The position numbers and the translations under genes were made by a program. The notes under the pieces are model-generated. The model worked only from the letters and a program-made list of their open reading frames with translations. It was not told the origin of the DNA and ran no database searches. 64,000 bases of DNA from Glycomyces harbinensis (GTDB lineage: Bacteria > Actinomycetota > Actinomycetes > Mycobacteriales > Micromonosporaceae), in NCBI RefSeq assembly GCF_900101745.1, contig NZ_FNAD01000005.1, forward strand, positions 186,001 through 250,000, given 5' to 3'. Of the stretch, positions 37,847-41,872 are shown in pieces (positions within the stretch are counted from its first letter, which is position 1; the number at the start of each line of letters is the position of its first letter).

Positions 37847-38728
37847 TCACGCGTCGAGCAGGGTGAGCTCCATGCCCTGGAGGCGTTCGGCGTCGGTGAT
37901 GGCTTCCAGGGCGGTGATCTTGTCGTCCTCGATGGTGAACACGAGGATCCTGGTGCCGAGGTCGCCGGCGGTGGCGACGACGCCGATCTTGCCGTCCACG
38001 ACGACGAGCTGCCCGTCCTTCGCCATGGAGGAGAAGGTGATCGCGCCGCCCGCGAGCTGCGCGGCGCCGCGGATGACCGGGCCGACCGAGCCGCCGTTCG
38101 TGCGGGCGGTGACGTCCGGGTCGAGGACGGCGACGAGCGCGTCGAAGTCGCCGTCGCGCGCGGCCCCCATGAACGCCTCGACCACGGTGCGCTGGCGCGA
38201 CACGTCGCGGGTCGGCGGCGTGCCGGTGCCGCGGACCCGCGCGCGGGCGCGGCTGGCGAGTTTGCGGGCGGCGACCGGGGTGCGGTCGATGATCTGGGCG
38301 ATGTCGTCGAAGGGCACGGCGAACATGTCGTGGAGGACGAACGCGAGCCGTTCGGCGGGTTCGAGGGCCTCCAGGACGACCAGGAGCGCGAGGCTGACCG
38401 AGTCGGCCATGAGCGCGGCGGTCTCGGGGTCGGCCGCGGGGCCCGCCTGCGCGGCGGGCTCGGCCAGGCCCTCCTCGAATGCGGGCATGGGCTGCTCGGC
38501 GCGGGTCTTGCGGCGGCGCAGCTGGTCGAGGCAGACGCGGCCGACGACGGTGGTGAGCCAGCCGCTGAGGTTCGCGATCGCGCCGGTGTCGCTGGCGGCC
38601 AGGCGGAGCCAGGCCTCCTGGACGGCGTCCTCGGCTTCGCCGGAGGAGCCGAGCATCCGGAATGCCACGGCCTCCAGGCGGGGCCGGTCGGCTTCGAAGC
38701 GGCGGGCCAGCCACTGGTCGTCGTTCAT
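37847..38728 (-). CDS. ECF41-type sigma factor with C-terminal SnoaL-like domain (SigJ-like)
   Basis: 293 aa. The ATG at 38728 has GAGGAGGAG eight bases upstream; longer in-frame starts lack one. Sigma-2: LEAVAFRMLGSSGEAEDAVQEAWLRLAASD. Sigma-4: PAERLAFVLHDMFAVPFDDIAQIIDRTPVAARKLASRARARV. C-terminal SnoaL/NTF2-like extension (about 190-293), RQRTVVEAFMGAARDGDFDALVAVLDPDVTARTNGG, a fused regulatory domain in ECF41 in place of an anti-sigma. It is divergent from a carboxymuconolactone decarboxylase-like gene, the classic ECF41 partner. Both genes have GGTCACA-N16-CGTC promoters, consistent with autoregulation. Confidence 0.92.
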   Translation of the reverse strand: MNDDQWLARRFEADRPRLEAVAFRMLGSSGEAEDAVQEAWLRLAASDTGAIANLSGWLTTVVGRVCLDQLRRRKTRAEQPMPAFEEGLAEPAAQAGPAADPETAALMADSVSLALLVVLEALEPAERLAFVLHDMFAVPFDDIAQIIDRTPVAARKLASRARARVRGTGTPPTRDVSRQRTVVEAFMGAARDGDFDALVAVLDPDVTARTNGGSVGPVIRGAAQLAGGAITFSSMAKDGQLVVVDGKIGVVATAGDLGTRILVFTIEDDKITALEAITDAERLQGMELTLLDA

Positions 38729-38763: not shown

Positions 38764-38790
38764 GACGCACGGGCGGGCGCGGTTGTGACC
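38764..38790 (-). promoter_or_regulatory. ECF41-type promoter of the sigma gene itself
   Basis: On the minus strand: GGTCACA (38790-38784), 16 bases, CGTC (38767-38764). It lies 36 bp upstream of the sigma-gene ATG. It matches the published ECF41 consensus TGTCACA-N16-CGTC except the first base. Confidence 0.75.
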
Positions 38791-38839
38791 GCACCGGCGC
38801 ACCTGCCCGGCGATGGTGGCCGGGGACACGTCCGGCGGC

Positions 38840-38866
38840 GGTCACACCGGTGCGGCGGCGCCCGTC
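38840..38866 (+). promoter_or_regulatory. ECF41-type promoter of the carboxymuconolactone decarboxylase-like gene
   Basis: GGTCACA (38840-38846), 16 bases, CGTC (38863-38866), 41 bp upstream of the ATG at 38907. It has the same -35 word, spacing and -10 word as the divergent sigma promoter. Confidence 0.8.
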
Positions 38867-38906: not shown

Positions 38907-39380
38907 ATGGAACCGCGATTCAACCTCTACGCCAGCCCCGCCGCCGCCAAGGTCGCGAAGTACCTCAACTCGGCCTCGAAGGCCGTCGAGGACGCGGGCC
39001 TCGACCCGAAGCTGCCGAACCTGCTCCTGCTGCGGGCCAGCCAGATCAACGGCTGCGGCTTCTGCACCGACATGCACTACAAGGACGCCGTCGCCGCCGG
39101 GGAGGACCCGGTCCGCCTCAACCTCGTGGCCGCCTGGCGCGAGGCGACGCTGTTCACCGGCGCCGAGCGCGCCGCCCTCGCCCTGACCGAGGAGGGCACC
39201 CGCATCGCCGACGCGCGGACCGGCGTCGACGACGGCGTGTGGGAGGACGCCCGCAAGCGGTTCTCCGACGACGAGCTGGCCGGGATCATCTCCCTGGTCG
39301 CGATCATCAACGCCTACAACCGCCTCAACGTCATGGCCGGCTCCCCGGCCGGCGGCTACGTGGCCGGCCAGTTCGGGTAG
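38907..39380 (+). CDS. Carboxymuconolactone decarboxylase/AhpD-like protein, ECF41 partner
   Basis: 157 aa; ATG with GAAGGG upstream. AhpD-like helical fold with the redox pair in QINGCGFCTDMHYKDA (CxxC-xx-H), as in peroxide-reducing adaptors. ERAALALTEEGTRI and DDELAGIISLVAIINAYNRLNV follow. In the ECF41 context such proteins (COE group) are the main regulated target; the reaction is unproved, but a peroxidase or disulfide role is likely. A tandem repeat of GGGAGCC begins nine bases after the stop. Confidence 0.9.
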   Translation: MEPRFNLYASPAAAKVAKYLNSASKAVEDAGLDPKLPNLLLLRASQINGCGFCTDMHYKDAVAAGEDPVRLNLVAAWREATLFTGAERAALALTEEGTRIADARTGVDDGVWEDARKRFSDDELAGIISLVAIINAYNRLNVMAGSPAGGYVAGQFG

Positions 39381-39388
39381 TCGTCTCT

Positions 39389-39479
39389 GGGAGCCGGGAG
39401 CCGGGAGCCGGGAGCCGGGAGCCGGGAGCCGGGAGCCGGGAGCCGGGAGCCGGGAGCCGGGAGCTGGGAGCCGGGAGCC
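39389..39479. repeat. 13-copy tandem repeat of the 7-bp unit GGGAGCC
   Basis: Thirteen exact-phase copies of GGGAGCC run from 39389 to 39479; only the eleventh copy (39459-39465) differs, as GGGAGCT. It begins nine bases after the stop of the AhpD-like gene. It is a likely length-variable minisatellite. Confidence 0.95.
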
Positions 39480-39580
39480 GCACCTCTGCCGGACCGGCGG
39501 GCCGGTGCCCGGAGGGCGCGATGAGTTCGTGCAGGTCCCCCGAACCCGGGGCGTGCGAGCGCCGCGCGGCCGCGCCGGCC

Positions 39581-40618: not shown

Positions 40619-41872
40619 CTAGAAGTCGACGGGGTCGCGGACGATCGGGCAGGTCATGCAGTGGCCGCCGCCGCGCCCGCGCCCCAGTTCGGCGCCGACG
40701 ATGGTGACGACCTCGATGCCGGCCTCGCGCAGCAGCGTGTTCGTCTGCGTGTTCCGGTCGTACGTCATGACGACGCCGGGTTCGAGCGCGACCGCGTTGT
40801 TCCCCGAGTCCCACTGCTGGCGTTCGGAGGCGTACTCGTCGCCGCCGGTCTCGATGACCCGCAGCCGGGGCAGGCCGAGGGCCCCGGCGACCACGTCGGT
40901 GAACGCGGCCGTGCCGTGGTCGACCAGTTCGACGCCCGGCTCGCGGTCGGCGGGCAGGAGCGAGAACGTGTGGACCGCGTCCATGATGCGCGGGTACAGG
41001 GTCACCACGTCCCGGTCGGCGAACGTGAACACCGTGTCCAGGTGCATGGCCGAACGCAGCTTCGGCATCCCCGCGACGACGACGCGCTCGGCCGCGCCGC
41101 GCGCGAACAGGGCCCGCGCGACCTGCGTGATCGCCTGGCGCGACGTGCGCTCGCTCATGCCCGCGAGGACGACGCCGTTGCCGACGGGCATGATGTCGCC
41201 GCCCTCGAACGTGGCCTGGCCCCAGGACTCGTCCGGGTCGCCCCACCAGATCTCGGACCCCGTGAAGTCCGGGTGGAACAGGTAGACCGCCTTCATCAGC
41301 AGCGTCTCGTCGTGGCGGGCCGGCCAGTACAGCGGGTTGAGCGTCAGGCCGCCGTAGAGCCAGCACGTGGTGTCCCTGGTGTACAGGGTGTTCGGCAGCG
41401 GCGGCATCAGGTACTCGCGCGCGCCGGTCGACTCCCGCGCCAGCGCGATGTAGGGCGGGCGCAGGTCCTCGGGCAGGTCGGCGGTGGACAGGCCGCCGAT
41501 GAGGAACTCGGCGAGGTCGGCCGGGGCCAGCGACTCCAGGTGGGCGCGGGTCGGCTCGACGAGGCCCAGGCCGACCTCGTTCGCGGTGATCTTGCGGTCG
41601 AGGAGCCACGACCGGGCGGCCGGGTCGGACACGGTGGCGGCGAGCAGGTCGTGCAGCTCGACGACCTCGACGCCCCTGGCGCGCATCTTGTCGACGAAGT
41701 CGGCGTGGTCGCGCTGGGCGTTCTCGACCCACATGACGTCGTCGAAGAGGAGCCCGTCGGCGTTCGTCGGGGTCAGGCGCCGGTGCGCCAGGCCCGGCCT
41801 GCACACGAGCACCTTCCGCAGTCTCCCGACCTCGGAGTGGACTCCGTGGGCGGCCTGGTCCCGATCGGTCAT
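40619..41872 (-). CDS. arcA: Arginine deiminase
   Basis: 417 aa. It converts arginine to citrulline and ammonia. Catalytic residues: Cys in [17 protein letters not shown] at the C-terminus, [23 protein letters not shown], and [10 protein letters not shown] with the catalytic His/Asp. The N-terminal [20 protein letters not shown] is typical. GGAGGAG lies ahead of the ATG, and the start is 52 bp after arcD on the same strand. No arcB (ornithine carbamoyltransferase) or arcC (carbamate kinase) gene is in this window. Confidence 0.96.

Follow-up and report, generated by a model that had tools for sequence, protein, structure and literature searches.

A probably self-driven SigJ/ECF41-like sigma factor of Glycomyces harbinensis, its predicted dispersed regulon and a candidate Crp site

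The window (the whole 64,000-nucleotide stretch of DNA that was analysed, from the soil actinobacterium Glycomyces harbinensis) encodes a sigma factor with a C-terminal extension and, divergently, a CMD/AhpD-like protein. The region between the two genes carries an ECF41-type promoter for each and a palindrome between these promoters:

37847-38728, minus strand: SigJ/ECF41-like sigma factor gene, 293 aa, with sigma2, sigma4 and a SnoaL/NTF2-like C-terminal domain (Pfam/NCBIfam, match to 5xe7, AlphaFold with Foldseek)
38755, minus strand: predicted transcription start of the sigma gene, a G 9 nt after CGTC that is kept in 16/16 orthologues
38764-38790, minus strand: sigma gene promoter, with -35 GGTCACA (38790-38784), N16 and -10 CGTC (38767-38764), then ATA
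38816-38829, no strand assigned: palindrome GTGGCCGGGGACAC, of the form GTG-N8-CAC; the other strand, GTGTCCCCGGCCAC, fits the Crp form GTG-N6-GNCAC (locus comparison and motif literature)
38840-38866, plus strand: CMD gene promoter, with -35 GGTCACA (38840-38846), N16 and -10 CGTC (38863-38866)
38875, plus strand: predicted transcription start of the CMD gene, 9 nt after CGTC, a G in 11/13 orthologues
38907-39380, plus strand: CMD/AhpD-like partner gene, 157 aa, with a CGFC (CxxC) motif (Pfam CMD; TIGR00778)

The partner was recognized as AhpD-like in the initial annotation, in agreement with its matches to Pfam CMD (67.9 bits) and the AhpD core domain (TIGR00778, 55.2 bits) and with its CGFC motif. 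About 10 tandem GGGAGCC-type units lie directly 3' of it (39390-39480). The other flank of the sigma gene holds an aldo/keto reductase gene, and none of the neighbouring genes tested matched an anti-sigma family. An arginine deiminase gene is located nearby (40619-41872); in several relatives (L028, L033, and L034) the end of an arginine deiminase gene lies directly 5' of the sigma promoter.

The sigma factor has the layout expected of ECF41, with sigma2 and sigma4 followed by a C-terminal SnoaL/NTF2-like extension, a COE neighbour (the divergent CMD gene), and no adjacent anti-sigma gene. The SnoaL extension reported earlier is present by fold but divergent in sequence, scoring 23.8 bits against Pfam SnoaL_2, below the cut-off of 27. 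In an AlphaFold model (mean pLDDT 82) the tail matches NTF2/ketosteroid-isomerase/SnoaL-type folds, which argues that it is a real SnoaL-type domain; in the Foldseek search of this model SigJ (5xe7) came first and SigG1 (7qh5) next. M. tuberculosis SigJ (PDB 5xe7) is the best whole-length match in both structure and sequence (about 35% of residues identical when aligned by structure), and SigJ (PRK09636) is also the best NCBIfam match, at 232.8 bits and thus below its cut-off of 271; a canonical paralogue in the same genome (L012) scores 337.9 bits. The hallmark motifs of ECF41, WLPEP and NPDKL (PMC3426412; PMC7730460), are both absent from the window sigma factor: the sigma2-sigma4 linker reads MPAFEEGLAEP, and the extension has TDAERL in place of NPDKL. 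Two paralogues of the same genome (L012 and L017) have WLPEP in the linker, and the extension of L017 contains NPEKL. The ECF41 label is therefore partly supported, by the promoter type, the SnoaL-type tail, and the SigJ-like fold; because the two motifs are missing and the SigJ score is below cut-off, we speak of a SigJ/ECF41-like clade with an ECF41-type promoter, an assignment short of proven membership of ECF41. ECF56 SigG1 of Streptomyces tsukubaensis (PMC7730460; PDB 7qh5) also has a SnoaL_2 extension without NPDKL; unlike the window sigma factor, SigG1 has an anti-sigma factor (RsfG), a CCG/CCCTCC promoter, and no sign of autoregulation (PMC7730460). The window locus departs from ECF56 in its GGTCACA/CGTC promoter, which lacks a CCCTCC-type -10, and in that no anti-sigma neighbour was found.

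The two promoters were described at the outset as identical GGTCACA words with the same N16-CGTC spacing on opposite strands, and this is exact. Each CGTC lies a short distance from its start codon (35 nt from the sigma ATG at 38728, minus strand; 40 nt from the CMD ATG at 38907, plus strand). KGTCACA-N16-CGTC has no match in the window other than these two promoters; dinucleotide shuffles of the window gave a mean of 0.15 matches and never reached two (n = 100). The genome-wide search proposed with the original description yielded seven matches in the 6.17-Mb genome, versus one for the reversed pattern.

Conservation across Glycomyces points to function. The pattern xGTCAC(A/G)-N16-CGTC is found 32-46 nt 5' of the start codon in 16/16 sigma orthologues (G. 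amatae is a named relative, 85% identical); the core is invariant in all of them, an invariant C precedes xGTCAC, and conservation is poor over most of the spacer. At the CMD gene (CMD1), 13/13 orthologues have this promoter upstream, and it has been kept in four genomes where CMD1 is unlinked from the sigma gene (L206, L221, L224, and L244). A G is found nine bases after CGTC in 16/16 sigma promoters, 11/13 CMD promoters, and 16/17 promoters of a second CMD family (CMD2, below); because it matches the G starts mapped at ECF41 promoters (Wecke 2012, PMC3426412), it is the likely transcription start site. Divergent ECF/COE loci with both promoters were already described in that study (Wecke 2012, PMC3426412), in which the promoter was found at the ECF gene in 36 and at the COE gene in 41 of 55 divergent loci (PMC3426412). 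Since both promoters are conserved while the spacer drifts, the positive autoregulation of the sigma gene predicted in the initial annotation is well supported, and is strongly suggested by this footprint at 16/16 sigma orthologues and 13/13 CMD genes. In one genome (G011) the sigma/CMD locus is present in identical form on two contigs (L029 and L043), by duplication or as an assembly artefact.

Gaps of 25 and 10 bp separate the palindrome at 38816-38829 from the -35 elements of the sigma and CMD promoters, respectively. Of the 16 Glycomyces orthologues, 13 have GTG-N8-CAC no more than 60 nt from the sigma -35 (it is absent at L022, L025, and L033). Most Micromonospora loci that have divergent promoters also contain it, usually 3-5 bp from both -35 elements; it is absent from the canonical TGTCACA pair L005. 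The form of the palindrome matches the published sites of Streptomyces Crp, GTG(N)6GNCAC, and of GlxR, GTG(N)8CAC (PMC10033298). Of the 30 such palindromes found at 106 homologous loci, 27 fit GTG-N6-GNCAC on one strand, where base composition would give an estimated 60% or so. The genome encodes an orthologue of M. tuberculosis Crp (E 7e-105) that is also close to GlxR, so both the site form and a close regulator are shared with Streptomyces Crp and Corynebacterium GlxR. Probably, then, the palindrome is a Crp (cAMP receptor) site; the open-licence literature searched contains no report linking Crp to an ECF41-type locus, and such a candidate site appears to be previously undescribed at such loci.

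Another dimeric regulator might bind here instead, or the palindrome might be a by-product of -35-like half-sites, with Crp uninvolved; this we regard as possible, though less probable. The half-sites resemble the -35 core GTCAC (GGTCAC itself contains TCAC), positions 4 and 11 are unfixed, unlike the strongest TGTGA-N6-TCACA sites, and at high G+C the additional G in the Crp motif of Streptomyces is easily matched. Against it, the spacing is strict and equals that of the published GlxR and Crp motifs. Among 106 loci, spacing 8 between GTG and CAC occurs at 30 and the other spacings from 0 to 16 at 0-3 loci each; spacings 17-19 occur at 6-13 loci, 17 being accounted for by the half-site of the partner -35. 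Spacing 8 is also kept at four loci without a partner promoter (L028, L030, L031, and L034), and CMD2 promoters, which have the same -35, have a palindrome upstream in just 2/17 cases. A similar palindrome 5' of CMD2 was considered and dropped, because the recurring GTGAC overlaps the stop codon of the preceding gene in several genomes. Rex sites have the form TGTGAA...TTCACA, and Rex was rejected as the binder since the palindromes lack the A/T of that form.

For the candidate Crp site, activation is favoured over repression because of the position of the palindrome upstream of the -35 and its spacing. The gap between palindrome and sigma -35 falls into three groups, of 3-5, 14-15, and 25-26 bp, apart from one case of 10 bp and one of 21 bp. 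Helical phasing of the palindrome is suggestive: a Rayleigh test of 11-bp phasing gave p of about 0.17 for the sigma-side gap states and 0.02 for promoter-to-promoter distances.

The initial annotation took the regulon to be defined from sequence by the promoter pair together with the SnoaL extension and the AhpD-like neighbour; the pair stands, but dispersed unlinked targets and the central palindrome had been missed. We scanned 22 Glycomyces genomes (16 with and 6 without the sigma gene) for GGTCACR-N16-CGTCA. The sigma-positive genomes contain 68 sites versus 13 for the reversed-pattern control, and the sigma-negative genomes 7 versus 6. Where downstream genes were inspected, sites with a good start codon 30-44 nt further on belong mainly to the sigma gene, its CMD partner, CMD2, a third CMD-like family, and SDR dehydrogenases; one precedes a gene for a SnoaL-like protein. 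All 16 sigma-positive genomes encode CMD2, against one of the 6 sigma-negative ones, and the promoter precedes all 17 of the CMD2 genes tested. CMD2 proteins (L193 and orthologues) have GSSYF in place of the partner's CxxC, so CMD2 may not be a peroxidase. For the window genome, the predicted members are the sigma gene, CMD, CMD2 (C8:69520), and an NmrA-like gene (C31:86199). About 35 nt 5' of the last (L064/L247, C31:85471-86163) lies GGTCACA-N16-CGTCA, and an ECF41 sigma gene was not detected near it. NmrA was rejected as a conserved target, GGTCACA being found there in the window genome only; two orthologues (L066 and L067) have TGTCACA, and their loci also contain an ECF41-like sigma gene, which suggests that the NmrA-like gene changed regulator. 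The founding ECF41 studies reported one target only (PMC3426412; PMC6180224). Unlike that single-target rule, the regulon predicted here is dispersed over unlinked enzyme genes, which is new.

The promoters might be genuine but used chiefly by another sigma factor of ECF41 type in the same cell, so that regulation is shared rather than self-directed. The genome contains 14 homologous sigma stretches, so cross-recognition is conceivable; TGTCACA sites occur as a second divergent pair (C17:276308-276396) and 5' of the L012 sigma gene, and one genome (G012) keeps a GGTCACA promoter at CMD2 with no orthologue of the window sigma factor detected. However, target sites exceed the control in sigma-positive genomes only, and the paralogues have TGTCACA near their own promoters or, in the closest clade, a GGTC -10, which together make this explanation unlikely. 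The second divergent pair (L005) consists of canonical TGTCACA-N16-CGTC promoters in both directions and is flanked by a WLPEP/NPEKL sigma gene and a CMD-like gene. Chance matches in G+C-rich DNA, for which the shortness of the words and the single GGTCACR sites found without genes might speak, are contradicted by the shuffles, the reversed-pattern controls, and the conserved footprint, and can be ruled out as the origin of the pair. The downstream sequence of one site (C16:288654, L002) has no convincing gene.

The window promoters match ECF41 TGTCACA-N16-CGTC at all but the first base. The initial annotation was right that the -35 is one base from TGTCACA, by T to G; to regard the G as a mere off-consensus base is unsupported, because G is the rule across the clade (15/16 sigma orthologue promoters). 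In raw counts over 106 homologous loci, with relatedness uncorrected, G accompanies a Lys in the sigma4 recognition helix (R/K-K-LASRAR) in 28/31 homologues and a Gln there in 20/74. Near-identical helices in Nonomuraea differ at this point, one with Gln and TGTCACA (L103) and the other with Lys and GGTCACA (L104). The Lys occupies what we take to be the position of the DNA-contacting Ser172 of E. coli sigmaE, and plausibly Lys156 underlies the G at the first -35 base. The link is best treated as a lead because independent changes are few (four parsimony changes for Lys). A tight one-residue code was considered and is weakened by these few changes, by a counter-example outside the clade (the canonical paralogue L012, Lys with TGTCACA), and by Gln loci with any first base.

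On this comparative evidence, we think it quite probable that a self-driven SigJ/ECF41-like sigma factor controls its own gene, the CMD gene, and a dispersed redox-type set, with the palindrome most likely a Crp input. The SnoaL-fused sigma factor would direct RNA polymerase to CGGTCAC(A/G)-N16-CGTCA promoters, with Lys156 plausibly responsible for the reading of G over T at the first -35 base. One such promoter would drive the sigma gene itself (positive autoregulation) and one the divergent CMD/AhpD-like gene; further promoters would drive a small dispersed set of redox type (a second CMD, and SDR or NmrA-like genes in some species). Once active, the sigma factor would raise both its own synthesis and these redox-type enzymes. 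A candidate Crp site 5' of the sigma promoter could add a cAMP or metabolic input, and the SnoaL domain may sense a signal. ECF41 proteins are believed to be held in check by their SnoaL domain (PMC3426412; PMC6180224); in this protein, which lacks the contact motifs, such restraint may differ in detail.

The locus resembles ECF41 of Bacillus licheniformis and Rhodobacter sphaeroides (PMC3426412) and RpoE9 of Sinorhizobium meliloti (PMC6180224) in its SnoaL-type sigma extension, CxxC CMD partner, promoter near TGTCACA-N16-CGTC, and lack of an adjacent anti-sigma gene, and in having the promoter on both sides, as is often the case at divergent loci. It differs from those single-target loci in the G for T, the missing WLPEP and NPDKL, the unlinked targets, and the central palindrome. 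Actinobacteria very commonly carry sigma factors of ECF41 type, and the founding study knew of no inducing condition; here sequence is enough to outline a regulon of several unlinked enzyme genes, and the Crp-like site provides a concrete candidate input.

Tentatively, and with rather more doubt, cAMP-Crp, on a palindrome set at helically phased distances from both promoters, might gate the sigma gene and its partner jointly, and Lys for Gln in sigma4 might fix the G, helping to insulate the regulon from other ECF41-like sigma factors. The correlation of Lys/Gln with G/T offers a straightforward prediction of the way in which numerous similar sigma factors are kept apart in one cell. The closest paralogue clade (L009, L044, L046, L048, and L049) has xGTCAC(A/G)-N16-GGTC upstream, with a different first base of the -10; this GGTC is possibly another insulation.
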